Below, in pieces: positions 18,870-58,813 of a stretch of DNA of 64,000 nucleotides (the stretch's first letter is position 1; every line of letters starts with the position of its first letter). Location: the NCBI GenBank assembly GCA_015832175.1, contig WJXW01000004.1:124001-188000 (forward strand). Reading direction: 5' to 3'. Source of the stretch: Paraphaeosphaeria minitans (Eukaryota; Ascomycota; Dothideomycetes; Pleosporales; Didymosphaeriaceae). The position numbers were made by a program, and so were the translations under genes. The notes under the pieces are model-generated. The model saw nothing but the letters and a program-made list of their open reading frames with translations. It ran no database searches and was not told where the DNA came from.

Positions 18870-21800
18870 TCAATCATGAAGTCCCAACACGCGCCTCAAC
18901 CCCTGGAACTTCTTCTTTTTTCCCGTCCGCCCAAAGCTCACATCCTTACCCGTCTTCGGATCAACCTCCGTCCGCGCTTGACTAATCTGGCTCATCTGGG
19001 ATGTATTCCTTTTCATCAGTGTCGGTCTTGCAGACGATAAACGCCGCGTGAGCGGCCCATCGGCGCTCTGGGGGCGCTGGCCCTCTGCGAATGCGGGGTT
19101 GGGCGACGGCAGCGGCCACGAGTCGGATGTCGAGCGCTCGAGTGGCGTGCGGCGGCCCGCCTTGGGAGGCAGCGTCGACGTGTTGCCGGCGTCGGCGTCG
19201 AGGTCCTCGCCGATGGGGGTGAGAGGGCGGTTGCGGTCGTGGTTCTGCTGAGTGGGCGGCATGGGGATGTCGAGGTCTGCGGCGTTCTGCGCGTGGATGT
19301 CTGTTTCGGCGCTGTGGGCGTTCTTCTTCTTGCCGAAGCTGAAGAAGCCTCGCTTTGCCTTCTTCTGTCCAGCATCAATTGATGGAAGCGCCCCGGGCTT
19401 TCGGAGAGACCCGGCGGCCAGCGTTGAGCCCTGCGCATTAATCAAGCCATTGGTGGCCACGCCCTTCCCCTTGCCATTACCGTTTGTCACTGGTGGTGGC
19501 AAGGGCTCATTGTCGCTCAACTCTTCCTCCAGATCAGTAGAATCGCCGTCATCCTTACCAGCGCGTCTTGGAATACCTCGCACAGGAGGCAGCATAAAGT
19601 CTTCGTCTTCAGATGAATCTGCGAATCTGCTCTGGAAGCGGCGCGGCAAGCCTTCGTCCTCGTCACTGGAGTCGTTGATGCGACTTTTGAACGGCTTTGC
19701 TGCCTTCTTCGCTGGGGCTTTCGATGGAGCGGGTTTGCCAAACATCGTCTTTTTTACCTTCGGCGGAGGAGCTTCTACAGGTGCGATAGGCATGGGCGGT
19801 GCGGCTTCGTAGGCACTGCTGCGCCTGAAACGGCCCGTGGGGGACATGGACCTGATGCTGAAGCGGGAGGACTTTACGGTACTTGGTGAGTCAGGTGTCG
19901 GAGAAGATGGTCGCATGGACTTCCTAAGCGTCGACGGCGGAGGCGACGCGGCAGTCCGAGGTGGCGAAATTGATCGCACAGGCGGCGCAGCTCGCATGGT
20001 AGGTGTGGGACCTGAGCGCATGGACGCACGCATTGTGTATTGGCCGCCATTGTTGTTGTTCCGTGAAGCGCGGTTCCGTTGTCGCTCACGCTGGAAGCTA
20101 CTGGCCGAAGCATCCGAGTCGCTGTCATAAGTGGGAGCCGGAGGAGCGACATACTTGGGCTTAGTAGGAAGACCTGATGCGCCTTGTGGACGGGGACGAA
20201 ACGCTACACCGGCCGCTGCTGCTGGCAGATGTTTCTTCTGGAGGGCACCTCTTGGTGGTCTGGTGTCCACTGGTGGCATGTTCTGGCGTTGAGTAGCTGG
20301 TACGGATGAGCCTCTGCCGGCGAGCCCACCGCCGGTGCCACGCATAGTCGTCCGCATGTGCGGCTCAGTGGCGTTTGATGGAGGTGCGGTACCACGCATC
20401 GTCTTCTTAAGAGGAATCTCAGCCGGTGGAGAGGTAGCCATGGCCTTCTTCAAAGCAGACTTACGAGGCTGCGCTGGTGCCTTCGCAGGCTGTGTAGATG
20501 GTGCTTGAATAGGAACAACGGTAGGTTCTACCTTGACTCTGCGCTCCTTTGGTTTCGCGGGAATCGGTTCGGTCGCTTGCTGAGCGTTGCGCTTCGGCTC
20601 GGTCATTGTCTGTGTGGCGGGTGCTGCAGCTTGAGTAACGCTCCTGGGCTCTTCTTTGCTAGCAAGGTTGTTGATGAGCAGTCCCGATTTCGGTTGGTGC
20701 TTCCGCGAGTTGTGCAGGTCGCTCCAATGCTGCTGAGATTTCTCCCAATCAGCATCTTGTGCCTTTCGTTGCTCCTGAATGAGACCCTCCTGGATATCTT
20801 CTGAGTTGGTAGGGGCCCATCTCGAAGTTTCCAGTCCCGTCTTGTGTGCGGTAGGTGATGAATTGGTTGACGGGAAGCGAGAGGTTGGCGCCACAACCGG
20901 GCTTTCCATGATGGCATCTATAGAGCCAAAGCCCTCGACCTCATCCAGGTCTTCGTAAGCATCACTATAGATGCTGCTGTTGTCGTCTGAAGACTCGTCG
21001 TCGACAGGACGCTCAGGTATCTGGATCGTAATGGATGGCTGGCTGAGTGCAGAAACAATTGGTCCGGGGGCCTTTGTTACGACTTCAGGCTCCGAGGCAT
21101 CGTCGTCATCCCGGCCGCCGGGCACAAGCGGTCGCGGTGCTTTGGCTACGTCTTGGAAAGGTACGGGCTGGGGTGCAAATGTTGGTTCAGTCTCGGGTTC
21201 CCTGGAAAGAGGTGGACTTGCGGGTTGGACCGCGATAATGGGTACCTCGAGGGGTGTTGAGTGTGTCTCTATAGGGTTAGCCAAGGCCTTTGGCTCCGGT
21301 GCGGGTGTCGACTCTAGCTTGTGTGTCGTTTGATGGTCAACGGCAGGCGCGTCAACCTCGCTCTCGCTCGATTCCGAATAGTAGCCACTTCCCTCCACAG
21401 ATGTAACCTGCGGCGGAAGAGGGTCGTTCCCTGACGAGCGCTCCGCTGAACTCGCAGCAAAGTCGTGAGCAAGTACAGCACCAATCTTGTGGTCACGTGA
21501 TAGTTCTGTTGAGTCTCCCATAAGCGTAGCTGAATTTGACAACGACGAAGACACAGTCTCCGTGACCTTCTCAGGGTCATCTCTCGATCGGCGATTCGTA
21601 TCCCGGATACTGCCAAACGATGGCAGGACCGGGGTTGGTTTCAGGATTTCGTCGAGATCCTCGTCTGAACCATCATCCACCGTCTGCGGCTGCGAATCGT
21701 TGTATGCTGAGGTACCAACCAGTGTGGGCTCCTCCTCGAAGCTGATGCGGACCTTCTTTTTCTTCTTACTCCCGCCGTCTTCATACACGGCATCGGATGC

Positions 21801-23533
21801 TTCGCTTTGTCCTCCGCGGTTAAGTAGGCGGCCATTGTTGGCGAGTGGCGAATGACTTCGACCGGGGACCGATGGAGAGGCCTTGAGAGCGGACTTGGCG
21901 GGAGACACTGAACGGCCGGGCGGTTGGTGCTTGATCCCATTTAACAGGTCTGCTGCGACTGCTGCAAAGTGCGCATTGCGCGGAGGGCTCATGGAAGGCG
22001 CCCTCGCAGACCGTTCGCTTCCTTCGACACTGGGAGGGCCAGATGGAGTGCGGAGGCGCGGATAAGGACCGTCCTGGTTTGGAGGCAGCCTGGGCAAGGC
22101 CGTCTCTTTTGGCTCCTCGATCGGTTCAGGGGTAGGAGACTCGAGCTTTCGGCTGGTGTTAGCATCTGCGGGGGGCCGGTCTCCTGCTTCAGTCAAGTCT
22201 TGGGGGATGAATGCAACAGGGTCTTGTCTCGTATATTTTGCTGGCCGTGGAGCGTCTAGTATCGGGTCGCGTACCGGGGATGCGCTTGGGGACCGCTGAA
22301 CAATGTTCTTGAGTTGTGGAGCTTGCTTAGTCGGCTGGCTGTACTGCGGCGGGTTGTGGTGGGTCTGCCGTGGCGCATGCTGGGGCACGTATGGCGGCGC
22401 TGGATCTGCCGCATCGCTCATTGCTCGGTGTAGGTTCATTGCATCCTGCTTATGGATGAATGTCCTACTCGACGGGTCGTAGACAGCAAAGGGCGACTTG
22501 GGATCGACGACAGAGGGCGCTACAGCTGTTCCGCTCGGTTTCGCTCGCATGCCGCCCGTAGCCAGGCGTGAGCCTTGGACGCCGTTGGACATGTGCGCTG
22601 CCCTCGTCGAAACAGGTCGATGGGCAGCGTTTTGCACACCCTGAGCGGCTTGGCGGGTGGCGTACGCAGAGGAACCATCCGCTGTCTGTGGTGGCAGTTT
22701 TTCGCCTCTGAAGATTTGCTCAGCGTCCACGACTGGTCCGCTGAACCAGCCGCCATGGCCACGGCGCGCCGAGGCAACGGGTCGTGGTGCAGGGTAGGAT
22801 GTCGCTGGAGGAGAGATGGGCCGCGAGAAGTTGATAGATGATCTTTGTGCGCCGTCTTGTTCGTCCTCTACCACTTTGGCGAGAGGCGGCGCTCGCGGTT
22901 GGCCCCTTCCGCGATTGCTGGCATTAGATGTTCCCCGATCCAAGCTCACGCCACGGCCTCCTCCTGCTCCTCCTCCCCCTCTCCCAGCAGGCGACCCTCG
23001 GCGCGCCGGCGGTTCGAGACTCGAATTTCGTCGATGGACAAGGCTGGTTTGGGGGACGTTCCTGGGGACGGCCGGGACGGGAGGCGCATTGGGATCAACG
23101 GGGCTGCTCCTGGTGGGCGATTGATCGCGGAAGGAGCGCTCCGTCATGGAGCCTGAGCTGGAGTGGCGGCGCAAGCCTGGCCGTTGCTGGCTACTGTTGC
23201 CGTTGCCGCTGCCGTGCGAGGATGCCGAGGACACTGAAGCTTTCCGCGCCATCCGCTTCGTGATCGTGTCGGCCACGGGGGTCGGTGTCGGGGTATGGGT
23301 GCGCAGCGCAGCGGCGGCAGCGGCCGAGGACAAGGCGCCATTGGATTCGCGGTCGCGGAGGAAGGCTTTTGTAGCAGCAAGGGATGCGGATGCGCTCGGG
23401 GTCCTGGTCGAGGCCTGCATGTGACTTGTTAGCAAGGCAACCGGGGGCGCGCGAGAGGCTTCGTCAGTCTGCGTGGGCGCAAAGTACGTACGCTGCTCGC
23501 CGAAGAGGCCCGTCGTCTTCTACTGCCAAGCAT
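18870..23533 (-). CDS. Large Ser/Pro-rich intrinsically disordered protein
   Basis: A 1528-residue protein that I do not recognise by function. A tiny first exon (23492-23533, encoding 14 residues rich in Arg and Ser) joins in phase 0 to an uninterrupted 4545-bp exon (18870-23414). The intron is 77 bp (donor GTACGT, branch GCTAAC, acceptor ATGCAG). The sequence is low complexity throughout, dominated by Ser, Pro, Ala, Arg and acidic runs, with an Ala-rich helix near residues 34-45. A Lys-rich patch KKKKKVRISFEE appears mid-protein. Basic tails include FGKKK and the C-terminal GKKKKFQGLRRVLGLHD. Repeated short Ser-Asp-Asp-Glu motifs suggest casein-kinase sites. There is no signal peptide or membrane segment. 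It could be a cell-polarity or cytoskeletal scaffold, but this is a guess. Confidence 0.75.
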
Positions 23534-33527: not shown

Positions 33528-35339
33528 TCAGACTACATAACCCTTGTTCTGATGAACTCTCTTGACATTCGTATTCTTCCACACAAGCATGCACGCCAGC
33601 CCCAGGGCCCACACCGACACACCAGCGATCAACAAAAATCGCCAGGTATCCCCGTATGCGTGTTGGATGGCCAGACGAGTGGGCGAGTCCCACTCGTAGC
33701 TCAACTGCTCTTCAATGGAGCCGAAGATGGTAGTGAGGTTTCCTTGGGCCTCGAGGGGAAGGTATAGCGCGAGCCTTTTGGGTAACGTGCCCTGCCAGAT
33801 CGCAGACGAGATCGAGTAGCCAATAGCACTGCCAATGTAAGTGAAGAGATTGAGCAATGCAATGGTGATGGCAAAATATTGCTGTGCGGCAGCAGCAGCT
33901 AAAATGCTGATCTCGACGGTAAGCATGAGGATGCCGAAACCGAAGTTTGTGAAGATGGTGCACATGGCGATGTAGCCTACGTAGTGGTCGGGCTCGCGGA
34001 AGTGTATGAGCAGGCCTGTCCCAAGCACGATCAGTGGGATACCGCAGAACAAGCTGATGGGTTTGTATCTTCCGGTGACGGAGATGACGGCGCCGGCGGT
34101 AATATTCGCGAAGATCTGTACAACAGTGCCGGACTGATTGAGGTAGCTTGCATTGGCCACGTCTAGGCCGTGCACCACTTGCAGGTACGAGCTGAAGTAC
34201 GAATTCCAGCACGAGGCGCTTACAAAAAGCGTGAACGCTACCATGCAGGTGCCGAGGACTGTACGGTCGCCGAGGATAGGCCACGGAGTGAGCTTGACGC
34301 TGGCAAATGATCTCTCCCAGACGACAAATGCGGCGATGGATAAGACCCCGAAGACCAGGAAGCAGATGATGATCGCAGATCCCCAACCCTTTGCTTCTAT
34401 GGTGTACAGGTTAAACGGTAAAAGCAGGAAGGCAAATCCAGCAGATAGTAGTAGCAGTCCAACAACGTCAAACTCTTTCACATAATGCATGGTCGACTGC
34501 AAGAATGTGCGACCACTTCCTGTTTTGATCTGGACAATGCCTTCTCTTCTTGCCTTCCTGTACTGGTACATGAACAGCCCAAATAGCGGGAGAGCGACAC
34601 TAGGGAGTAAGATAGTCTCCATTCCAAACGCCCAGCGCCAGCCAGTCACGCCACGGTTGAGGAATGAGGTAGAAATAGGCCCTGCCAGCCATGACGTGAT
34701 GATGTATGGTGAAGAAAGCAGGGCTTGCATGAGACCTCGATGACGGAGCGACGACGTATCGGCAATAAAGACACTAAGACAGTATCCAAGACCATTAATA
34801 CCGACGGTATAGAAAATCTGGGATGCAGCATACATCTCCACACTGTTGCAAGAAGCCGCTATAATGAGGCCGATGGTCGCAAGTCCCACGCACAGGAGGA
34901 ATCCATGATGTCGACCGAAGATGTCCAGCATTTTGGCAATGGCAAGATTCGTGACGCCGCCAACCACCGAACTCACGACACTGGTGGTTGGCATGAGTGA
35001 GTGAGAAGCGAAGTCGGATGTGACGTAGGGAAGCACCGCGTTGCTAACTCCAGTGACAATGCCTTGCACAAAATAGACGAACCAGATTGCGATGTACGCC
35101 ACGATCAAAGCTTTGAGTGTCCACGCAATCGTGATGGCCTCGGCCTTTTGCACACCTGCTTGGAAATTCGTATCGATTGACTGATCGTTGGCCGCGTTGC
35201 CCTGGACTTTATCGGCACTGTGCTCGTGATCCGAGCTTGTGTCTTCCGTCGAAACGTGGACCATGTCGATCTCTTTGGTGTCAATGGCGCCCAACGGAGG
35301 GACGTTATTGGAAGCCATGATCGATTGATGAACCTTCAA
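33528..35339 (-). CDS. MFS transporter, siderophore-iron (SIT) type
   Basis: A 603-residue intronless protein with about 14 hydrophobic spans after a ~70-residue cytoplasmic leader. It has the arrangement of fungal siderophore transporters (MirB, Sit1/Arn types), including an AWTLKALIVAYIAIWFVYF first span and the KMLDIFGRHHGF loop between spans 2 and 3. The C-terminal extracellular loop before the last span (LPLEAQGNLTTIFGS) is typical of this subfamily. Such proteins import Fe-siderophore chelates by proton symport at the plasma membrane. In this cluster it might instead move a metal-isocyanide chelate, which is inference. Met8 (35318) is an alternative start. Confidence 0.85.
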   Translation of the reverse strand: MKVHQSIMASNNVPPLGAIDTKEIDMVHVSTEDTSSDHEHSADKVQGNAANDQSIDTNFQAGVQKAEAITIAWTLKALIVAYIAIWFVYFVQGIVTGVSNAVLPYVTSDFASHSLMPTTSVVSSVVGGVTNLAIAKMLDIFGRHHGFLLCVGLATIGLIIAASCNSVEMYAASQIFYTVGINGLGYCLSVFIADTSSLRHRGLMQALLSSPYIITSWLAGPISTSFLNRGVTGWRWAFGMETILLPSVALPLFGLFMYQYRKARREGIVQIKTGSGRTFLQSTMHYVKEFDVVGLLLLSAGFAFLLLPFNLYTIEAKGWGSAIIICFLVFGVLSIAAFVVWERSFASVKLTPWPILGDRTVLGTCMVAFTLFVSASCWNSYFSSYLQVVHGLDVANASYLNQSGTVVQIFANITAGAVISVTGRYKPISLFCGIPLIVLGTGLLIHFREPDHYVGYIAMCTIFTNFGFGILMLTVEISILAAAAAQQYFAITIALLNLFTYIGSAIGYSISSAIWQGTLPKRLALYLPLEAQGNLTTIFGSIEEQLSYEWDSPTRLAIQHAYGDTWRFLLIAGVSVWALGLACMLVWKNTNVKRVHQNKGYVV

Positions 35340-36412
35340 ATCCTTTCCTCGATTAACGGCTATTGCCGTTGTCGTCGCTCTTAGTTGCTATAGTTGAACG
35401 GCATGTGCTTCGTGCAAGCAAGGTGATGAAGGAATAGGCCCAAAGAAAAGGTAGGGAGAGCCTATGGTAACTCTACGCAGGAAGGGAGCATATATGCTCA
35501 TGGGCTATATGTAATGAGAGCAGGGTCGCTTAAGTGTAGAAACAATAACGGTAGAAGGAAGAAGGCTTTTCGATGGTAATATGCGCTTCGCGACTCATTG
35601 TGGCTTTCATGGGACATTTTACGGTACATAGACGGGAAAACCCGCTCATCTGTTGATGTGAGCATGTTGTCTGTGAACTGTGGCTGATTAGCCGATCTCT
35701 CGTGCTTGAAAAAAACCAGCTCAAACTTGCTCATATTGTGTAACTTACGATGCGAACCCCCACGCTACAGCAGTGAGATGCATAGGCCCCAGTCATAATC
35801 CAAACTGACATTTGCGGGTCATGGTCTTATGAGCTCGCATACTTGATTACAAGTTAGCATGTACTGCAAGTGCAGTCTAACTGTATAATTCACATTACAT
35901 ACGCTCTGGTTAGGGCTGTTGCGTGACTACGTGCTTATCAGACGTGTATGAGCAGACGCGTGCGTACCCTGTGCTTACATAGACCCTAGTTCTGAGCCAA
36001 TTTTGTTGGGCATTCTCGTAGGGGCCAACATAAACTTGCAAACTGGGCGTCCTAACAGCACGATTTAGGAGCATTTTACGTTGTCTCTATAAAGTATAAT
36101 ATCACTGGTAGGTAATCGGCCCTAGATTTGCCGAGCCGCAGATAATCTAGATGATAGCGTTTCTTCCGCCTGTATTTGGACTTAAATAGGATGCTAAAAG
36201 ATCTTAGATAGCGCATGAATGTATGGTCTACATGCATGCAGTTTGATCATTACTACGTCGTTGTGCGAGACAACACTCTCTCCGAAGTTCCTGATGATCA
36301 CGTACCTCCATCATGAAGACCTCTTTCCACCCCATTTTCCAATTTGGAATCTCCTTGACTCAACCGTGAAGGATTCATCGTATGAAAATTCGTCTCTATT
36401 CCCAGTCCCTCC
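35340..36412. other. Intergenic region, no gene seen
   Basis: AT-rich 1.07 kb between two transporter genes read in the same direction. No feature is supported. Confidence 0.4.
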
Positions 36413-38247
36413 TCAATTCTCCACCTCAATCGCTTTTTCGGTCGCTTTTTCCATTGCCGTCTCCTCAACGCTGATAGTTGCTTCAATGTCATTTGTCTGA
36501 TCATCGTCTGCCTCCTTCTGGTCCTTTGACTTAAGGTTATTCCAATCAATTCCCAAGGTTCCGATAGTTGCAATACAGAGCAAGATAAGCGCGACCAAGA
36601 ACGGTTGCGATAGAGCCTCGTTGTAAGCGATTCTGATTGACCTCAGGGTCTCGGGATCTCGAGTCAAGCTGTTGATTTCAGTCGCACCAGTCTTGACGAC
36701 GCTGGCTGGATCAATGTTTGCAATGTGTTGCAGTTTCTCTGCAAGCTTGTTGGCCCACAGGTTCTGAGCCACGCTGACAAACACGGCACCACCGAAGTTT
36801 TCGGCAAAGCATAGTAGCGCTATGCCGCTGGGAATATCGATATTCTTCCCGGACTGGACCGCAACAATGGCCTGCTGGATACCGAGTCCAACACCTACGC
36901 CAAACAGGATCTGATATCCGATCAGTCGACTTGTGGAAGTATCCACGTCCCATGTGTAGATGAGCCCAGCGCCAACGGATCCTAGCGTGATCGGAGCAAA
37001 CATGAATGGGTGGTACCAGCCAATCTTGGTAACAAGAAAGCCACCGCTCATGATGCTCAGAATGAGACTGATCATGAATGGCAATAGATCAATCCCGGAT
37101 CCTACTGCCGAAGCACCACGAACCGCTTGAAACCAGATTGGAATGAAGTATGCCATGACGAAGAAGGAAGCGCTGACGCAGAAAGCGTAAAGAGCAGCGC
37201 ACATGACGTGTCGCGAGGTCATGGCCTTGGTGTTCAAGGTCGCGTTGTCCTTCATGAAGGGTTGTACCACTAAGAAACCGAGAAGGAGAACACCGAAAAT
37301 CACCAACAGGGCGATGATCCGGCCGTTGCTCCAAGCATACGTTGTCCCACCCCACTGGAGTGCGATCAATAGACATATGATGGACGGAGCAAACAAGATT
37401 GTACCGATGGGATCGAACCGGAGAATGTACTCTTTCAAGGTCTTTTTCTCCTTGGGTGGTGAAGGCGGGAACTGGAGGCAAAAGATCAAGATGAGAATCG
37501 TTATTCCTCCGATCGGTAGATTGATGTAGAAGCACCATCTCCAAGAAGCGTGGTCTGTCAGCGCACCTCCCAGCAGCGGTCCCACTATACTTGCTATCCC
37601 ATAGACAGCAGTTATCAATCCAATAAAGGCACCGCGCTTTTCCAGTGGTGTTACTGTTGAAATCGTGGTAAGACAGCCGGTGAATATTCCGGAGGCACCA
37701 AATCCAGAGATGGCTCGTCCAGCGATAAGTCCAGCTGAGGTCGGAGCGACCGCGGAAATCAATGATCCAACCTCAAACACCACGACGCAGGCGATGAAGA
37801 GCCATTTCATGTTCAAGAAGCTGTAAAGCCGTCCGAAGAAAAGCTGGAATCCTGAGACGAATAAGAGGTACGCAGACCCGTACCATCCCACATCACCTAA
37901 GGAACCGAAGTGATCTGTGATTCTAGGTATGGCGGTGGCGATGATAGTATTGTCAACCGCAATACAAAAATTCGTAAGCTGAAGACTGATTACGATCATC
38001 GCCAACTTGAATCCCGTGGCATATTGTTCTTGGTTGTCTTCGCCGGCTTTCGGTTTCGGAGTCTCGCTGCCCCCGGTGGAATCATTGCTTTCAGGTAGCC
38101 CTGTGCTTTGATTAATCTAATGTTGCTTCCACAAAAGTCGCAGAACTTACCTGCAGCATTATTTGACGCTTTGGAAGAGCTAGTATCCCCCTTGGTCTCA
38201 TCAAAATCGACGATAGGCGTCTCTTTCATTGTCGAATTGGCTGACAT
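36413..38247 (-). CDS. MFS multidrug transporter, DHA2 family
   Basis: Exon 1 (38151-38247) and exon 2 (36413-38100) join across a 50-bp intron (donor GTAAGT), giving 594 residues with about 14 hydrophobic spans. The N-terminal 62 residues are polar. Motif C of antiporters is present (GPLLGGALTDHASWRWCFYINLP), as is the TAIPRITDHF block of the first loop. The tail after the last span is acidic. DHA2 proteins export drugs and secondary metabolites by proton antiport. Its place beside the biosynthetic genes fits an exporter of the product or an intermediate. Without the first exon the ORF would start at 38005, which lies just before the first span. Confidence 0.88.
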
Positions 38248-39624: not shown

Positions 39625-42600
39625 TTACCATCCCTCGCCGCGCCTGATATCCAGCAGTCTCGCATACCTCGTAAAATGCTCATCCTGCTGTAGTGTCTTC
39701 AACTCCTCCGGCAGAGTGCCCAGCTCAAGCTCCACACCGCCATCAGCCCTCAGCGGGTGAATCAGCGAGAATCGGAAGCGCCTATGCCCACGTTCAATTT
39801 GTGGACGCACAACAGCTGGTCTCCCTCCGGCAAAGATTCCCTCGCCGAATGAGGAGATATTGTCTTCCTGCTCCCACAGAATCATGTTTGAAATCATCTC
39901 GTTCATGTGCTCCAGACCCATGTTAGCGGTCGCTGGCTTACTGTAGTCATCCATGGAGCGCAAAAGCGTGTATGCATCGTGTACCAATGCAGTGTTGACT
40001 TTGGCGATTGTCTTACGGATCAGATATGCAACCTTGACAAGGTCTGTGTTCGGTGAGCACAGCTCTTCCACGGACATCATCGTACGACTCATGATGAGCA
40101 TGCTACCTGTATAAGTCGACGGCAGATGACCTGAGAAGTAGAGCCGACCGTCGATTGGGATCTCGAGTATAGACATGTCGTCCTGAGCGAAGGTCTGGCC
40201 ACGATGGTTTTTGGCAACCAGATATCTTGCTCTGACTGCAGTTTGCCACATGAATGCCTGAACGATATCGCTGATGGAGGGAACGTGCCCTTTGGCATCA
40301 ACGTGGCCGTTGACGTCTTGTTTGAGTTTTTGCAGGTTCTCGCGGGAGATCAAAAAGAATGTGCTGGACAAGGAACGATCAGAGGGAGCTCTTGGCCACT
40401 GAGGCTGACGTCGATAGACGGGTCTCAGATCGTTTAGTGACCCGCCTTTGATGACCGCTCTGTTGTTGCTTTCCCGTTCTCCAGCATTGTAGTCGGGCGG
40501 GAAGAACGGCAGAAAGTCCCATACAGTATTGTCGACCTCTGAAACTGATTTCGCATGTCCCTCATGCTGGTAGAGGATCTCGGGTAGGCTGTGGTGGCAG
40601 CTTTGAGGATCGTACCAGTCACACGTTGCAGTTTGATCTCCTTGCACGTATCTGCAGCTATCTGCCCAGACTCTGAGAGCCACCAAGGCACCTTGACCAT
40701 CGAAGAAAGTATGCATGAAGTTCGTGGCCAGTATACATCCGCCCTCAACGAAGTTCGCATGGGCTACCAAGACATCGGCAGGCATGCTTGGGAACGGATA
40801 GCAATCGAGAACCGTCTTGTCTTCATAGAGCGAAGGTGAAAATTTGCCGTCTCGCATTTTTTGGAACGACGGAAGGACTTTCGTCATATCTTTGAAGACA
40901 AGCTGTCTGGGATTGGATGTGGTCGCCAACGACGGAGGTGGCATTGAGATGGCGTATTCACCCTTCCTGTAGCCAAACTCGGAATCTGAAGCATGCATCA
41001 TCTTCCCATCAAGCTCTGGCATGATCTGAAAAGCACGACATAAACCAGCTTGAAGGCGCTCGAAGGCTTGTTGGAAGCTTGAATCCCTCGGCAACGCAAA
41101 GAAGAAGGTGAACCCCATGTAGTGGTTCGGATTCACTGCATCGAAAGGATTCATCTTAAACCCCATACGCCGCTGGTACTCGTGCATGGCATGGTGAAGG
41201 TCGACATGTCCATTCGTTGACCCGTTGGAAGGTTCCAGGATAGGCTTTTCGGATATTTGATGTTGGTCACTGCCATCAGTGTGCCCGTTGGTGTGCCCAT
41301 TCACTTGTGCATTAGACTCTTCATTGGTCGCTGATTTCACTCGTTGTTGCAGGAGTGTTCTCAGTTGCGATGAGAATTTGGCAAGGGTTGGGTTTGCATA
41401 TAGATGCCTTGGGGCGATCTGCTCCTGTAACCCTGTGGATCCTCGGATGATTCTAATAGCTTGGAACACAACGAGAGAGTCTAGGCCCAAGTCGAAGACA
41501 TCTTCATCTGGATCGGCACCTTCGATTTCTGGGAATACTGACTCCAAGATCTTTTTGACAGACTGCAAGGTAGCCTCATCTGAGCTTGTGTCGATTGTGA
41601 ACTCATCGAACTCCTCAAGCTGTACCTCATCTCTAGTAGCGTAGAAGCGATCAATGAAGTCTCTGTAGAGGTCCAAAGTCGCTCGGCGCTTGAGCGTTGA
41701 CTTGTCCGTGCGGATGAAAGGTTTATCTGGCTCTGCAAAGGCAACATAGTCCCTGTGGAACCTCGTCTTTTGAAAACCAGATGAGTTCGCGCGCTGCACC
41801 TTCTCCCAGATGCTGTCAAATAACTCGTTGTTTCTGGCGGAGGGATCTTTCAATTCGATGAGTAGTCCAGCCTGCGGTTTGCCTTGTCCAATGACAAGGC
41901 AGCCCTCGATTGCAGGATGTGTTGTGATCAAGGCCTCTGCTTCCAAAGGCGCGATCTTGTATCCGTTGGACAAGACGACAGCATCGTCACTTCTGCCAGT
42001 GTACGCATATAGATACGGCTTAGTGGGGTGTCGTTTGTAGAGATCTTTGAGGTTGACAGATTGCTGGTCGGGGAAAGTGTAGAAGACGCCTTGGAAAAGA
42101 TCCCATTGAGGCTTTCGATGGACCCAGTGCTCGTAAACACCTGGTTCGATTTCCTTGAATTCGAATCCTGCAAGTGGATGAAAGGCAAACCAATGCCAAT
42201 CCTCTCGTGTCGGCCACAACACGCCCATAAACAGACCCTCTGTGGTGCCTGTCAGGTTAAGAACTCTAACGACATCATTGACCTTTGTTACGATGCTGGG
42301 GCTGACAGGACCTAGATTTACGGTTCGAGTTAGCCTCATGATTCGTCTTGTTTCTAGGACATCGCTGTGCTACTTACCGCCGGAGACACAGATGAATTTG
42401 ACCTTCGTGAACTTCGCCAACACAGCCGGAGTCTCGCCCAGCTCGTCAGCAAGTGATGGCACGAGATGATAAATGTCGATCTTGGCATGGTCCAGTAGAT
42501 TCTCGATCAGCGACATGTTTGGCAGAACTCTCGGGGGACCCAGAACGCAATGAAGCCTGAAGAAAGCGGGCACAACGATGTCCATGAGCATACCAGCACC

Positions 42601-43526
42601 CTGAAAGTCCCAGAAGTCAGAATTCGAGACAAAATACAGTATTGCGAGCAGGAATTGCTAGGATTGAGGTAAAACTTACATGGCTCATAGGAAATGAAGA
42701 GTAGATGGTGTCCCCTTCGTTCCAGTTGTCAGTCCACGGTTTGAAACCATGATCGCCTACAGCCGGGGGCAGCAAGCGGACGGCGTCCAATGACCCAACC
42801 AACCCATGAGTCCATGAAATCGGTTTTGGAACCCCCGTGGTGCCAGATGTATGTGTTATACAGAAGGGCTCGTGCACAGCTTCTTCGAAGGTCTTTGTGA
42901 ATGGAAATGGCTCGGTGGTCTCCGCATCTAGAAGCTCTTCCAAAGAAGGTAGCTCGAGAATCGTCATGGGTCTTTGCTTTGTGAAAGCCTCAACAAGAGG
43001 AAGCCCTGCTTGTCCATGGGGTCTAATCCATACATCGCATTTGGCGGCGTTGAGAACCGCCAAAGCACCCTCAACATTGTTTTTAGGGGACAAGAACAAC
43101 GCCTGTCAGCAGAAGAGTCAGTTGCCAATTCATATTCCGGGATAGATACGATCTGAAACTTACTCCACAGTTGGCCTTAATGGCACCGTAGATTAACAGA
43201 ATGTGTCGCAAATCATCTATAGTTCAATTTAGAGAGACTATTTGCCTACTGAATTGCCAGTATAGCTTACGAGGGCCGATATAGCCTACTGGCACAATCT
43301 TGTTGCATGATTGATCATGATTCTCTTTGAGCCTGTCATTCAGGAACCAAGCAGTCTTGTCCACTGCTTTCGCAAATGCAGCGGCGGTTATCGTTTGAAA
43401 TTGGGAAGTCTGATCTGTAAACGAGGCCAGCGAGTAGATGATGCGATCGGGCTCGGAGCGAGCCAAGGCATCCAAGATATGGGGTATCAACCTCTTGCCA
43501 TAGGAATGCGTGCTGTTGATAGCCAT
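39625..43526 (-). CDS. NRPS-like enzyme: adenylation-thiolation-acyltransferase
   Basis: Exons 43271-43526, 43164-43216, 42680-43102, 42378-42600 and 39625-42311 join in frame to 1213 residues. The adenylation domain (about 1-550) has THTSGTTGVPKP, an LTGTTEG core 5 and GRSDDAVVLSNGYKI, the form seen in single-module NRPS-like enzymes. The thiolation domain carries DLGLDSL with Ser597 as phosphopantetheine site. A linker of Asn-Gly-His-Thr repeats follows. The C-terminal ~500 residues resemble BAHD/trichothecene acetyltransferases, with catalytic HTFFDG (His852, Asp856). There is no condensation, thioesterase or reductase domain. I infer that an acid is activated, loaded and transferred to an alcohol or amine. 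It diverges from the isocyanide-synthase gene. As I recall, Aspergillus CrmA has a similar A-T-transferase part fused to its isocyanide synthase. Confidence 0.88.
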
Positions 43527-43889
43527 AGCGACCAAGGAATGAAAAATTGGGTGTGCAAGTGATCTTTCTCTCCGTTAACCAGCAGGTTCCAAGGCTAGAA
43601 CTTAACGATCTGATGGCTTTGCAACGATAGCTTGTCAAGTCTGCGTAGCATTCGGCGGGATTTGACTTTCAAATTTTCAATACTATCAAATCAGCCTTGG
43701 GACATTCAGGTCCGGGGCTTGAGTCAGGTGCATGGTCGGCTTAGGTCGCCTCAATCACCATGCAAGAGATATGTGGTGACACCATGACAGCACAATCGAC
43801 TAAAGTTCGCAACGATGAAATAAGCAAGGGTCCTGTATAGACGGGCACTCTATTTTTTACAATAGTGTCTTTGCAAAAACTAAGTAACG

Positions 43890-43897
43890 TGAGCAAA
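43890..43897 (-). promoter_or_regulatory. Candidate copper-response (Mac1-like) site
   Basis: TGAGCAAA on the plus strand reads TTTGCTCA on the minus strand, the yeast Mac1 copper-starvation element. It is about 370 bp upstream of the NRPS-like start. By chance an exact 8-mer would occur about 0.04 times in this spacer on either strand. Function is inferred. Confidence 0.4.
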
Positions 43898-44245
43898 ATG
43901 TCGTGTCCTGCATAAGACTTGCGCCTCTTACGCGCGCGGGCCATCGACACTCAAGTGCTGTCTCAACCAAACACCACGGTAATCCCCACCGCTATTACGT
44001 AGCTTGAACAGTAATTCAGCCTTGGACGATCCATAAGTTGATGTCGTTCACAGTGCAGCACGTGTGCTGACAACGTCCGACCGCAGGGCGGATTGAAGTA
44101 ACAAGGATGTGGTCCTTGCGATAAGAGATCAACCACGCTCATGCAGTGCAACACGAGCACCGACACGTGAATGAAAGGAGTGAGATTTTAATCCTTCAGA
44201 CCTTAATATCGATAATATATCTTTGGTCGTTCATACAATTAAGCG

Positions 44246-44478
44246 AAGCGAATGCGAAGGATTGAGCACGTTTAAGGTTTGCTGGAGGCCTTGTGGCGCC
44301 CATGTTGTAGCCCATGAGCTGTTTCGATTGAGATATCTTGGAGGTGACCTTGTTCCTTGGAATTTGCATATCAGCACTATTTCTCGTGAATAAGCGAGTG
44401 CAGATGATCGAGCACATACGAGGTTTGGTCGAGGCCACGAGGCGCTCATGCGGGGTGACTTTGAGCTGTATCGGTCAG
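44246..44478. repeat. Duplicated ~85-bp element in the divergent promoter
   Basis: Copy A (about 44246-44330) and copy B (about 44392-44478) are offset by 146-147 bp. They share AAGCGARTGC, GAGCAC, AGGTTTG, GAGGCC, GGCGC and GAGCTGT in order. The GAGCAC core in each (TGAGCACG at 44263, CGAGCACA at 44409) is one mismatch from TGTGCTCA on the other strand, which I recall as the Aspergillus Mac1 site. Many differences between copies are transitions. Confidence 0.6.
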
Positions 44479-44752
44479 GAAGTTCGAATCGCCCGTTCTT
44501 AGCCGATGTGGCTGATCCTACATTGTTTTAGACTGTAATCGAGTTTGCCTGGTTTTTGTGACACAGGATTGTATTTCTTACTGTATGCACATGGCGGTGT
44601 CATAAGCGACTCAAATTATAGAGGCAACTACTCGAGTTTAAGGAACTACATAAATTACGATCAGGACTGCGAGAGTCTTGGAGAAGGCATTTGTTAGTCA
44701 AGGTCAACGTGATCAGCTCTCAATATTCCATTTCTGCCCTCACTTCACAGCT

Positions 44753-47389
44753 ATGGCTCCTGCCCTACTTGCAACACCGGTGACCAATGATCAAGTGCTC
44801 ATCGCCAAATGGTCTCCAGAACTTTCCGTCAAGATGAAACCTATATCTTCCGACACTTTGTCAACTGGTGGCTCGGTTGTAAATTCTCCAACTTCGAACA
44901 CCATGCCAAAAACGTCCGGCAGCGCAACTGATGAGGAAGACAATGTTAGTCTTACGTCAACCAAGATTTTAGAGATCATTTTCGACTATGCTCTGAACAA
45001 GTTTGACGACTATCGAGAGCGTCTTGAAGCCGGAAGACCCAGGTTCATCGAGGTGCTCAATGAGTTTGTGAAAGTAGGGTCGAGGATCGACATGGCTCTT
45101 CCCGCATTTCCCTTCAAATCAGCCAACAAGGTCTACAAGGCGCTGGGATTTCTGCCCGATAAGGCTGAGGAGCTCGCTTTGTCACGGTTACACAACATGT
45201 GCAGACGCATTAAGGAGATCTATGCGCCGGGTGCCAACGTTGTCATCATCTCGGATGGACTTGTCTACAATGGTTGGTTCCACCTCATGCACATGCAGTA
45301 CGCGCTAATACGTATGGTTAGACCTATTGAGCATCTCCGACAGACATACCTGGATTTACGGACAGGCCCTGCGAGCAATGGCTGTCGAACAAGACTTCAC
45401 CAACATTAGGTTCTCCCGACTACGAGACTTTGTTCCTGCCGATTCAACTTTGAAGCTGCCAGATAAGTTGGACGAGATTTCGTACGTCGCCAATGCCACG
45501 AACTTCCGGCGATTCATCCTCAACAAGTTTGGAAAGGATGGCCTGGACGTCGATGAACTCATTGCTACCGATACAGACACCCGTCTGACGTACCAGGGGT
45601 ATCGCCGATTCTTGATGTCAGATTTGAGGCACATCTTCACGCTTGGAGCGGATCGGAACAGTACTGCCTATAAACGGGAGACGAAGTATCTGGCTAAACA
45701 GATGATCGTTCGAGGAGTTGTAAGTAGATTGAGTCTGACAACATGGGAGGGTGGAATGCTGACGGTGCCCTTGGGAACAGGCTTTCGCGGGTGCAATCAA
45801 GCACAACTTCCCGAACTACTTGCGGCTCTCTATCCACCAGTCTACCGGGGAGCACAAAGTTTCGATGAGCTTGCTGAACACCAAGACGGGATACACGACT
45901 CCTTGGCATTGCAGTGTCGCTCTGCAGGCCGATGGAGAGTGGACGAGTGCTCCAAAAGGCGACTTCGAGGATATGCCTAGGATGAAGGTCGTCGAAGAGA
46001 ACGGCCGTCCTAGCTACTTCCGAGAGATGACTGAAGAAGAGTTCCTCGAAGACCAGAGACTGGCAGAGGAGGCGGCAAAGATGGCTGCCAAGCCAGTGTT
46101 GGAAGAGATCCAGGAGCCCGAGAGGAACGAGGACTTCGTCCAGTGGGAAGGCTTGACCTACGAAGCCAAGAATGGGGGCAAGACGAAGCGACTTCTGGAT
46201 CAAGTGGACGGATGGCTTCGGGGCGGGACATTGACGGCCTTGATGGTATGTGACCTTTGACACCAGAATATTACAACGACGCCCACTTACTGACACTTCT
46301 AGGGGGTCAGCGGCGCTGGTAAGGGTATCCTGCTTGAGGTATTGTCCAACAGGTCGAACCCTGGTATCGTCCATGGTGACATCTTGGTGAATGGTCAGGC
46401 TTCGAACTCCAAGAGTGTATCAGCAACGGTCTATCAGCAAGACGTGCAGCTTTCTACCGCGACGGTCAAGGAGGCATTGATCTTCAGTGCCCTTTTGAGG
46501 CAACCAAAGACGACCCCTGTCGTCGAGAAAATTGCTTATGCCGAAGGGGTACTAAACCTCATCGGCTTGGATGCTTTTGCCGATACAGTTATCGGGGCGT
46601 CTAGTGAAAGTGAGTCGCAAGACCTTCCAGAGTATCCATTATTTACAACTTGACAGCCTTGAACAGCGAACAGATAAAGCGGCTGTCGATCGGAGTTGAA
46701 CTTGCTGCCAAACCCACCAACTTTCTCCTGCTTGACCAGCCACTTGCTGGGCTAGATAGTCAAGCTGCCTTCGCCATTTGTCAGCTTCTGCGCAAGGTGG
46801 CGCAAAAAGGCCCAGCCATCCTCTGTGTCGTCGATCAACCTTCTGCACGACTTCTCCAGACTTTCGATCGCTTGCTACTGCTTGGTGAAGGAGGGAAGCA
46901 ATTGTACTTTGGCAAGATCGGTCCTTCTTGCAAAACTATGATCAGCTACTTTGAGAAGAACGGCGCCAGGCCATGCAAACCAGATGAGAACCCTGCAGAG
47001 TGGACACTTGATGTCACTTCCTCGACTGAAAACTTTGAGGAGTCACAAGACTGGCCCGAGATCTGGAACAAGTCTCAGGAGTGCAAGGCGACGAAGAGCA
47101 AGCTTGCTCAGCTGAAGAAGAAGTTCTCGGCAGCGGCGGAGCAGGTCGACAGCCCTGGCACTTTAGATGCGACCGATCCGTCAGCTCCTGGGTTTGATTC
47201 ACTGGACTTACAACGTAAGTCATCCTTACCTGTCACGAAACTTGATCTTTGACTCACATTGTTATAGGGACCTTCTACAAGTACCTCCAATTGGAGAAGA
47301 TGCAACTGCCCGCGGCGAATCCCACAGACGCGTCAGCACCTTGGCTCACAAACGGGCCTGCAGTACTTTCAGCAGCCTATCTTCCCTAA
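44753..47389 (+). CDS. Isocyanide synthase fused to a degenerate PDR-type ABC ATPase domain
   Basis: Six exons (44753-45272, 45322-45719, 45781-46245, 46303-46609, 46657-47214, 47268-47389) join in frame to 789 residues. Residues ~71-389 match the DIT1/PvcA isocyanide-synthase family, with ISDGLVYNDLL spanning the first junction, NFPNYLRLSIHQSTGEHK and TPWHCSVAL. These enzymes convert an amino-acid amine to an isonitrile using ribulose 5-phosphate. After an acidic linker, residues ~426-700 match the second nucleotide-binding domain of PDR transporters: Q-loop VYQQD, signature LNSEQIKRLSIG and D-loop GLDSQ. Key catalytic residues are changed. Walker A is GVSGAGKG (Thr to Gly469), the residue after Walker B Asp590 is Gln591 not Glu, and the H-loop residue is Asp623 not His. 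No membrane domain follows. An upstream in-frame ATG exists at 44678. Confidence 0.9.
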
Positions 47390-47990: not shown

Positions 47991-49037
47991 TCAGATCGCC
48001 ATCATCCTCTTAATCCAATTGGCTTTGGCCGCTTTGGCTGACTGAATGACCAAGTGGTTGCCGTCATTGATCATCTCGAAGATGTGGTATGCACCAGGCC
48101 AGATGTGCAACTCGCAAGTGGACCCACATCGCCACATGTTCGTCGCAAACTGCACTGCCTGATCGCGCAAGACCTCGCACTCGCCAGCATCAACGTAGGT
48201 TGGGGGCAGATTGGAGTAGTCGTCGGCGCGTGCCGGTGCGTGGTACGGCGTGACCTTGTCAGTGCCACGGATATCCGGAAGGACAAGGTCCCAACAGGCG
48301 CGCACCCACGGCGTGCTGGTCGGGTTGCCGTACTCGTATTGCTGGTCCGACAAGGTTTCGCACCGGTCATCGAGCTGAGGTGCATACAGCATCAGACCCT
48401 TAATCGGGATGGAAGGAATCTTCCTGTCGCGAGCCATGAGGCACACCGCTGTAGCCACTATGCCCCCGCCAGAGATGCCGAAGACTACAATTTGCGCGGG
48501 ATCGATTCCAAGCTTACTGGCATTTTCAGAAAGCCACACAAGCCCGGCATAGCAATCTTCGCTGGGGCCAGGTTGGGGAGTCTCGGGTGACAAGCGATAC
48601 TCAACAGACACCACGACACAGTCAACGCCCTCGAGAAGGTCAATGATGGGCGTGAGAGCCGTGAATCTGTCTCCACTGACCAGTCCGCCTCCATGCATAT
48701 GGTACAAAACTGGCCGTGGAGTACTCGAGGGTTCCTTTGGCGTAAAGACGGAAAGAATGATGGTAGTGTTGTCCGGCCCCGGAATCGAATGTTCCTCATG
48801 GGACAAGAAAGGTTTGTCTTTGAGGATGGTATCCGCACTAAACTCCGTCTCTCCCGTCTCTCCATGTGCGCATTGATGATCTTCTTTCGAGACTCCACGC
48901 ATCAAGTCAAGATCGAACTCTTCGGGGATTGTAGTAGCATCGAGGAGCTTCGCGAGCTCAGCGTCATAGGCTGGACGAGGGATAATCCTCGAATCAAGCT
49001 TCGCAGCCTGGCTGAATGGATGAGGATACTGTGTCAT
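47991..49037 (-). CDS. Alpha/beta-hydrolase, HSL-type esterase
   Basis: A 348-residue intronless member of the alpha/beta-hydrolase-3 (hormone-sensitive-lipase-like) family. The oxyanion motif HGGG is at 115-118, the nucleophile Ser189 in GISGG and the catalytic His318 in GAYHIF. At the usual acid position the sequence reads GECEVLRD, so the acid appears to be Glu287 rather than Asp. There is no signal peptide, suggesting a cytosolic enzyme. It may remove acyl groups from the cluster product or simply lie next to it; membership of the cluster is inferred from position. Confidence 0.85.
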   Translation of the reverse strand: MTQYPHPFSQAAKLDSRIIPRPAYDAELAKLLDATTIPEEFDLDLMRGVSKEDHQCAHGETGETEFSADTILKDKPFLSHEEHSIPGPDNTTIILSVFTPKEPSSTPRPVLYHMHGGGLVSGDRFTALTPIIDLLEGVDCVVVSVEYRLSPETPQPGPSEDCYAGLVWLSENASKLGIDPAQIVVFGISGGGIVATAVCLMARDRKIPSIPIKGLMLYAPQLDDRCETLSDQQYEYGNPTSTPWVRACWDLVLPDIRGTDKVTPYHAPARADDYSNLPPTYVDAGECEVLRDQAVQFATNMWRCGSTCELHIWPGAYHIFEMINDGNHLVIQSAKAAKANWIKRMMAI

Positions 49038-50574: not shown

Positions 50575-52080
50575 ATGGACATTAGCCAGCTCACGAAATT
50601 GCGAGCAGCAGGTACGTCATCTACACAACCACCTCGAATCTACCCCTAACGCCTCGTCCCAGGTAAGTTGGAGGAAATGGCTGCCGTAGCCCACGAGCTC
50701 GATCTCTACACCACCGCCGGCTTCTCCGTGCACTACGCGCCCTCGCAGGCTGTCTCCGGCTCCGACCCAGAAGCCTTGATCTACCGCGCCCTTGCCCAAA
50801 CGCTGCGCGCACAACCGACGCTCTTCGCCGTCCCGATCGTCAGAGAGGGCGCGGAGACCTACTTTGCGCGTCTCCCCTCCATTGATCTCCGTCAGGTCAC
50901 GACCTTTGTCGCGCGGGCCAAGGGCGTGCCTGGTCCTGGTGATGGAGGTAGAGATGCCGAGCTCGACGCCGTCCTCCAGGAGCAGGTCAATCTCAATTTC
51001 AAATCCGAGGCGGGTGTCCTGCCCGTGTGGCGCTTCATCGCGCTGTATGATGGGCCTGAGAAGCTGGGGTTTACGGCAAACTTCATGGCGCACCACGCGA
51101 TCGCCGACGGGGCCAGTTTCCAGATCCTACACCGGGAGTTTCACAAGGCGTTGCACGATCTCTTCTCTTCTTCTTCGTTGTCGTCGTCCCCCACCTCGCA
51201 GGCTGAAACTCATGTCGAATACGTCGTCTCCCCCAAAGACAGCGACGTCATAGGACCCCCGATAGAAGCCATCCACTCGCTGCAGCTCCCCGAGCCCGCG
51301 CCCCAGCCAGACGAAGAAGCATCGCCGAAATTCAACGACTGGCTCGGCAACCCGCCCTCCCTACCCAACTCCACGGGCTACACCACGCTCACGCTCACCC
51401 CCGCTGCGGTGGCCTCCTGGACCCGGGAGTGTCGCAAGAACAAAGTCGCGCCGCCCGCGGGTCTCAACGCCCTGCTGACCCGCAGCATCTACGCCGCGCT
51501 GCCCGCAGCCACCGAGTCCATGGACGTCAACATCCCCGTCGATGTGCGCGGGAGCCTCCCGCCCGCCGCCGTGGATGGTGTGATGGGGAACTTCTTCGAC
51601 GCGTTCCGGATCCGTGTGCTGCGGTCCGACTTCGCCTCTGACGGCAAAGAGGACGGGACAGAAGGATTAGGCGCCATCTGGCCCTCCGCGAAGAAGGTCG
51701 CCAGAGAAACGCGCGCCTACTTCAGCCGCACGACGGCAGACGGCGAAGCCATCCTCAACATCGCGGGGCTGAGGAACGTGCCCGACTTGCACGCCCTCCT
51801 CACTTCACTCATCACCGGCCCGCGCAGCGAGGCTCTCGAGCTGGCATACATAGGCCCGCACGTGCCGTATTCCTCGGGGGAGACGCTGCGCTGGGACGCC
51901 GGCAAGGCGACGGTGAGCCGGTGTGCGTTTGCGCTGGGGGCGTGTCTGCAGATGACCGTCGTGCTGCACGCCGAGGGCATGACCATCGGGTTTGCGTGGC
52001 CGCGGGCTGCGATTGAGGAGCGGCTCGTGGAGGAGACCATTGCGGGGGTCAGGGGGTATTTTGATTCGATTACCGCGTAG
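50575..52080 (+). CDS. Alcohol O-acetyltransferase-like acyltransferase
   Basis: Member of the AATase (Atf1/Atf2-like) family, which transfers acyl groups from CoA to alcohols. A 13-codon first exon (50575-50611) joins exon 2 (50663-52080) across a 51-bp intron (donor GTACGT, branch CTAAC, acceptor CCCAG) to 484 residues. The catalytic HHAIADG motif has His156-His157 and Asp161. The C-terminal CLQMTVVLHAEGMTIGFAWPR segment is typical of the fold. The coding sequence is markedly GC-rich compared with the transporter genes upstream. It could acylate an alcohol in the isocyanide pathway or serve detoxification; cluster membership is uncertain. Confidence 0.8.
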
Positions 52081-57762: not shown

Positions 57763-58813
57763 ATGACCCGTCCTCAACGCGACCTGGACCTGACATGCTG
57801 GCTGCTCGACACGCGCTCGCTATGGCCCGGCACCAAGATTGCTGAAGCGGTTGGTATCCCTTCCAGCCACTGCCGCCGCTGACACGCCCACCCAGGCCGC
57901 CGCCGAGCTCCAACTCATCAGCCCCGAGGAGCGCGAGGCCTGCACGAGGAAGTACCACATTGCCGACGCGCGCATGAGCCTGGCTTCGGCCCTCCTCAAG
58001 CGCCGCTTCGTCTCGCGCACCCTCGCCATCCCCTGGGCCCAGGTGCGCTATGGGCGCAGGCGCGATCCCACCCACGGGAAGCCCTGCGCCCTGCTCCCCA
58101 ACGGCGAGCACGCTCCCCTCGAATTCAACGTCTCGCACCAGAACGGCCTGGTCGCCCTGGTGGGCAGCTCCAGCCCAGACGCCGAGCTCGGCGTCGACAT
58201 TGTGCACACCAACGAGCGCCTGGCCTACACGCACAAGCTGGTCGACCGCGAGGGGCTCGATGGCTGGGTCGACATGTATGCCGACATCTTCAGCGACGAA
58301 GAGTGCTGGGACATCAAGTACAACCTCGACCCCTTCACGCTGCTCGACGGGACCGACGTAACCCCCGAGATGCTGGGTCGCCACGACCGCGTCTGCCAGC
58401 GCGGCCAGCCTGTCTCCGCGACGCTGCCGTCGGGTGAAAGGCGCGTCTTCAGCTCCGACCTCATCATCGACGCCAAGCTGCGAAGGTTTTACGTCTACTG
58501 GTGCTTCAAGGAGGCCTACATCAAGCTCGACGGCGAGGCCCTGCTCGCCAAGTGGATCAAGGAGCTCGAGTTCAAGAACGTGCGCGCCCCGCGCCCGGGG
58601 GGTCCCGCGGCCTGGGGCGAGCGCGTGAGCGACAGCGAGGTGTGGCTCAAGCGGATGAGACTGGCCGACGTGCGGCTCGAGATCCAGAGCTTCGAGGACG
58701 CCTTCATGATTGCCGTTGCCGCCAGGCCCGCGGACCGGCTGCCGGACCATCTGACCGACTTTCAGAGTTTGCGTCTTGAGCACGATCTTGTGCGCTTTGC
58801 GACGCCGTTGTAG
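57763..58813 (+). CDS. 4'-phosphopantetheinyl transferase, Sfp/NpgA type
   Basis: Transfers phosphopantetheine from CoA to carrier domains of PKSs, NRPSs and alpha-aminoadipate reductase. Exon 1 (57763-57849) and exon 2 (57896-58813) join in phase 0 across a 46-bp intron (donor GTTGGT, branch GCTGAC, acceptor CCCAG) to 334 residues. The N-terminal CWLLDTRSLW block is typical of NpgA. Conserved motifs are FNVSHQNGLVAL, GVDIV with Asp130, and WCFKEA with Trp231, Lys234 and Glu235. It is probably the general fungal enzyme and should prime Ser597 of the NRPS-like protein 15-20 kb away. Confidence 0.93.

Follow-up and report, generated by a model that had tools for sequence, protein, structure and literature searches.

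The gene at 44753..47389 of Paraphaeosphaeria minitans joins an isocyanide synthase (ICS) to a single nucleotide-binding domain (NBD) of the kind that forms the second NBD (NBD2) of PDR pumps. The ICS-NBD fusion is firm, and the domains of the gene and its neighbours are well supported. Our preferred explanation, held with moderate confidence, is that the gene supplies the ICS of a split CrmA-type pathway and that it has captured a non-catalytic NBD2 as a fold. All positions are those of the window, the whole stretch of 64,000 nucleotides that was analysed; the genome examined comprises 47.45 Mb in 30 contigs, and its size, its introns and the genes it contains point to a filamentous fungus.

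Gene model and point of fusion

The model of the fusion gene consists of the following features.

44753..47389, + strand: ICS-ABC fusion gene, six exons, 789 aa (spliced model and Pfam)
44753-45272, 45322-45719, 45781-46245, 46303-46609, 46657-47214 and 47268-47389, + strand: exons of the fusion gene
45059..45979, + strand: isocyanide synthase domain (PF05141), aa 103-373, broken by the introns 45273-45321 and 45720-45780 (Pfam)
45781..46245, + strand: exon 3, the fusion point, in which the C terminus of the ICS is followed by the N terminus of the NBD
46123..47123, + strand: PDR-NBD2-type NBD, aa 421-719, without a membrane domain (structure, profile and tblastn searches)
47268..47389, + strand: last exon (41 aa), the least certain part of the model (splice signals only)

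The splice sites were picked from homology and consensus. All introns are of the GT..AG type and 47-61 bases long, and the reading frame is kept throughout. The ICS domain ends at about 45979-46021 and the NBD homology starts at about 46123, both in exon 3 and with no stop between them, which makes the fusion independent of the intron 46246-46302. An earlier note on this DNA had described an ICS joined to a lone PDR-type NBD, which was confirmed, the two domains being fused within exon 3. It had also treated the 46245/46303 junction as the place that decides the fusion, and this did not hold: the intron lies inside the ABC half, not between ICS and NBD, and transcripts across it are therefore not decisive. 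That two genes were read as one through an annotation or assembly artefact is very improbable. The model was derived from sequence, which leaves some room for such an error, but the end of the ICS and the start of the NBD share a single stop-free exon and the gene sits on a genome contig of 4.2 Mb.

The isocyanide synthase half

The match of the ICS half to PF05141 (E 1.5e-94) reached 317 bits against a curated cut-off of 26.4 and covered positions 2-269 of the 273 in the profile. A search of solved structures aligned this half with PvcA (3e59) over aa 102-387 (E 3.4e-32), with the LPAFPxKS, SDG, RLSIH and TPWH stretches kept. As judged from these matches, the ICS half is a complete domain of the DIT1/PvcA isocyanide synthase type. 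The domain is likewise complete in PvcA, which, unlike the fusion protein, is bacterial and has a chain of 330 aa. The NCBIfam model of tyrosine isonitrile synthase gave 120 of 600 bits with the fusion protein, far under its cut-off. Genome-wide, PF05141 was matched three times, each time by an exon of the fusion gene, which suggests that no other isocyanide synthase gene is present.

Identity of the ABC half

Pfam assigned aa 446-593 to PF00005 (ABC_tran) with 47.7 bits against a cut-off of 25. In the PDR family model TIGR00956, aa 387-728 matched profile positions 725-1065 of 1394, which correspond to the second half of a PDR pump, with a score of 388 bits against a cut-off of 1959 set for the whole pump. 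The best PDB match was residues 864-1164 of 7p03, which we take to be yeast Pdr5, with 307.5 bits, whereas NBD1 of this chain scored 32.3 bits. The matches to the second NBD of 7p03 and to the second half of TIGR00956 identify the ABC half as a PDR NBD2. Its homology to the NBD2 of PDR pumps (7p03, 9s2c and 9iuk) extends over about 300 residues and includes an LNxEQ-type signature and the GLDSQ stretch. In contrast to these pumps, the ABC half lacks NBD1, the membrane domains and the Walker A Thr, the Glu and the His; where a PDR (ABCG) protein has two NBDs and two membrane domains, NBD2 alone is present here.

The earlier note had seen no membrane domain attached to the ABC half. In agreement with this, tblastn searches with three PDR stretches from the same genome, which contained whole or partial membrane domains, NBD2 and, in two of them, the end of NBD1, found no PDR remnant below E 0.43 in the window besides the NBD2 piece itself, and hence no remnant of a membrane domain.

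A shared intron was considered as a sign of the origin of the ABC half and rejected. The Met at the intron 46246-46302 is also next to an intron in the PDR paralog L013 (C13:1619482-1620592, - strand), but as read by eye the two positions differ by two bases, and the site carries no intron in six other paralogs nor, by its open frame, in L005. The L013 paralog has GAEKT in its Walker A.

Loss of the catalytic residues

Fifteen of 30 loci from the same genome were compared, comprising eight PDR-type NBD2s (L005, L006, L007, L009, L010, L012, L013 and L016), six more distant loci and one (L028) without a match. Three sites of the ABC half deviated from the catalytic consensus.

46324..46329, + strand: Gly469-Ile470 (GAGKGI) in place of the Walker A Thr-Thr (paralog comparison)
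46737..46739, + strand: Gln591 in place of the catalytic Glu (7p03 alignment and paralogs)
46833..46835, + strand: Asp623 in place of the H-loop His (7p03 alignment and paralogs)

The counterparts in the 7p03 alignment are T912/T913 for G469/I470, E1036 for Q591 and H1068 for D623. All eight PDR-type NBD2s of the genome have KTT, LDEP and the His, against KGI, LDQP and Asp in the fusion gene, which bears out the loss of the Walker A Thr, the catalytic Glu and the H-loop His reported in the earlier note. An active ABC ATPase has Thr or Ser in Walker A, Glu in Walker B and His in the H-loop; the fusion protein has G469, Q591 and D623. The Walker A Lys468, the Walker B Asp590, the Q-loop Gln and the GLDSQ stretch are retained. 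The signature, which had been listed as kept, is LNSEQ; it matches the LxxEQ of 8/8 paralog NBD2s but is not the canonical LSGG, and, given these paralogs, it was non-canonical already before the fusion.

The catalytic site of Pdr5 is made up of the Walker motifs of NBD2 and the signature of NBD1. Consequently, ATP hydrolysis would not be expected of an NBD2 without NBD1 even if its catalytic residues were in place, and their loss after the capture is unsurprising. According to the published work on Pdr5, one of its two nucleotide sites is degenerate and the E1036Q substitution abolishes its ATPase activity (PMC6533308). With its NBD2-type signature and without the Walker A Thr, the Glu and the His, the predicted ABC half is not expected to hydrolyse ATP.

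A domain that cannot hydrolyse might still bind ATP and serve as a nucleotide sensor or an ATP-bound clamp, in which the Glu-to-Gln change would hold the bound state and the domain would regulate the ICS or dock the A-T-transferase encoded nearby. The retained Lys468, Asp590, Q-loop Gln and GLDSQ would suit such a role, and the replacement of Glu by Gln is the same as the laboratory E1036Q change in Pdr5 (PMC6533308). We nevertheless consider it quite improbable, as the Walker A Thr, a ligand of Mg2+, is replaced by Gly and a homodimer would have the deviant LNSEQ signature on both sides.

Constraint on the ABC half

The ABC half keeps 69 of the 91 positions that are invariant among the NBD2s (76%; 73-78% with each paralog left out once), whereas each paralog, set against the other seven, keeps 92-100%. 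At variable positions its residue was seen among the paralogs in 139 of 204 cases (68%), compared with 77-85% for the paralogs. In a tree of 15 NBDs it grouped with the eight NBD2s (support 100/99), none of which was supported as a closer sister, and its end branch, at 1.03 changes per column, was longer than those of the eight others (0.083-0.54). The three lost residues named in the earlier note are all real, but the losses are wider and affect 22 of the 91 invariant positions. They were not significantly concentrated in the motifs, in which 21 of 33 positions were kept and 12 lost, with 48 of 58 kept and 10 lost elsewhere (Fisher p 0.07).

The long branch, the 22 lost positions, the disappearance of all three catalytic residue types and the lack of confinement of the losses to motifs speak for a decaying passenger, that is, a PDR fragment fused by chance, tolerated because it is C-terminal, and now drifting. 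We regard this as unlikely, but as the alternative to be taken most seriously. Against it stands the open frame, as the absence of stops and frameshifts claimed in the earlier note was confirmed over 376 codons. In neutral simulations with about 23% of the residues replaced (d 0.12), no stop arose in 0.7% of 1000 runs; these started from the present sequence, contained no indels and cannot date the fusion, and the post-fusion share of the divergence is not separable. Much of the divergence of the ABC half may predate the fusion. The third-position GC is also alike in the ABC and ICS halves (0.606 and 0.600), which argues against a passenger as well.

The ratio dN/dS against the paralogs was discarded as a selection test; of the 36 pairs, 32 gave an infinite dS and four a dS of 2.8-4.0, and with such saturation the ratio says little.

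The open frame and the 69 kept positions suggest that the ABC half is under selection, and by the stop test it does not appear to be a freely drifting fragment. Its constraint is nevertheless clearly weaker than that of a pump domain, or of a different kind. The earlier view that this is not a dying transporter therefore stands as far as the open frame and the missing membrane remnant are concerned, but the relaxed constraint and the long branch are visible too.

Neighbourhood of the fusion gene

The fusion gene is surrounded by the following features.

39625..43526, - strand: NRPS-like gene, divergent from the fusion gene, with adenylation (PF00501, PF23562), thiolation (PF00550) and transferase (PF02458/PF22664) domains (Pfam, two single-frame pieces)
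43527..44752, no strand: intergenic region of 1.2 kb between the divergent NRPS-like and fusion genes
47991..49037, - strand: alpha/beta hydrolase gene, its 3' end facing that of the fusion gene (Pfam, PF07859, E 2.2e-46)
50650..52080, + strand: candidate crmB ORF, matching Condensation (E 1.9e-4) and AATase (E 0.024) below threshold

The start and introns of the NRPS-like gene were read by eye. For the candidate crmB, no PDB match was found up to E 0.1.

Two sequences that we take to be copper-response motifs were counted, TGTGCTCA, which appears in copper reviews, and TTTGCKC. The latter occurred 24 times in the window, with 20.3 expected, and once between the divergent genes (TTTGCTC, 43891-43897, - strand); TGTGCTCA occurred three times, with 3.07 expected, and not between these genes. 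As the counts in the window are at chance, the motifs were rejected as evidence of copper control. Six matches to Ctr copper transporters were found in the genome, none of them on the contig of the window. These copper results count against the preferred explanation, as does the weakness of the crmB candidate.

Two ORFs of MFS transporters, 36416-38116 (- strand) and 33531-35387 (- strand), lie near the cluster. The former most resembles the DHA2 efflux pumps (TIGR00711, 167.9 bits, under the cut-off of 230.2), and these ORFs could encode a candidate export pump for the product. A 4'-phosphopantetheinyl transferase-like ORF (57797-58813, + strand; PF22624, PF01648) is located about 10 kb from the fusion gene; enzymes of this kind activate thiolation domains. 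The open frame 18873-23519 (- strand, 1549 aa) had no Pfam match up to E 1.

Proposed explanation

In our preferred explanation, a CrmA-type chain would have been split into the ICS-ABC protein and the divergently transcribed A-T-transferase gene. The ICS half would make an amino-acid isocyanide, perhaps from valine, given the likeness of the cluster to crm, and the A-T-transferase partner would activate this product and transfer it to mannitol or another acceptor. This likeness is also the sole ground for proposing a mannitol-type product and copper control. The capture would have taken in the NBD2 of a PDR pump but neither its NBD1 partner nor the membrane domains, and this NBD2 would most likely serve as a non-catalytic fold, either a spacer or a dimerisation or docking surface, perhaps with weak nucleotide binding retained through Lys468 and Asp590.

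The earlier proposal of a selected nucleotide-sensing or scaffold domain is plausible, and of the possible roles a scaffold is favoured over slow decay and nucleotide sensing. That the captured NBD2 is a conserved pseudo-ATPase which ties the ICS to the separate A-T-transferase, possibly under nucleotide control through a Glu-to-Gln lock, is a tentative proposal and on balance unlikely.

Comparison with known isocyanide synthases

The earlier note knew of no described protein with this architecture. This claim probably does not hold: CrmA homologs that carry 'an additional transporter domain' were reported by Won et al. 2022, primarily in Dothideomycetes (PMC9381783). In their description CrmA is composed of ICS, adenylation, thiolation and transferase domains, the genera with such homologs include those of A. 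brassicicola, L. maculans and C. heterostrophus, and in C. heterostrophus the formation of copper-dependent mannitol derivatives requires crmA; an extra domain is thus compatible with a working enzyme. The main text of that paper leaves the type of the transporter domain and its catalysis unnamed and does not contain 'abc'. That the ABC half is this transporter domain is our inference from the shared architecture. If so, its presence in three genera would mean long retention, which would argue against a decaying passenger.

Among the other literature hits, most of them represented by their listing, nothing on an ICS-ABC protein was found beyond this remark, and under the terms tried no such fusion appeared in the NRPS surveys PMC2823734, PMC3554632 and PMC4205913. 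Nickles et al. 2023 place all ICS proteins of their survey under three architectures, with 'abc' absent from the main text (PMC10153163), and Lim et al. 2018 give the same three (PMC5974471).

If the ABC half is retained across fungi, an ATPase domain of a transporter would have found a second, non-catalytic use within an enzyme of natural-product synthesis. The 'transporter domain' of CrmA, so far unexplained, would then gain an identity at the sequence level. CrmA would also occur in two forms, as a single chain and as a pair of genes, a point of relevance to the origin of ICS-NRPS-like fusions.

The complete CrmA domain set was found at the locus, but across two divergent genes. As in Dothideomycete CrmA, an ICS with an added transporter domain adjoins an alpha/beta hydrolase, which occupies the place expected from the layout crmA - hydrolase - crmB. 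The acyltransferase gene that lies beyond the hydrolase in crm has as its possible counterpart in the window a weak AATase-like ORF, a sub-threshold crmB candidate. The Dothideomycete CrmA is one multidomain protein, whereas the adenylation, thiolation and transferase domains of the window reside in a separate, divergent gene (PMC9381783). The CrmA of A. fumigatus, an ICS-NRPS-like protein (Lim et al. 2018, PMC5974471), also has the A, T and transferase domains at the ICS locus, but in one gene, and its description includes no ABC domain. The split has its closest precedent in the Fusarium GCF 8 (Nickles et al. 2023, preprint, PMC10153163), in which ICS and NRPS-like genes are likewise separate neighbours; its ICS is monodomain, unlike the ICS-ABC fusion. 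By these likenesses, the fusion gene most likely represents a split version of the known copper-starvation enzyme, which looks different from known CrmA in its division into two genes and in a predicted catalytically dead NBD.
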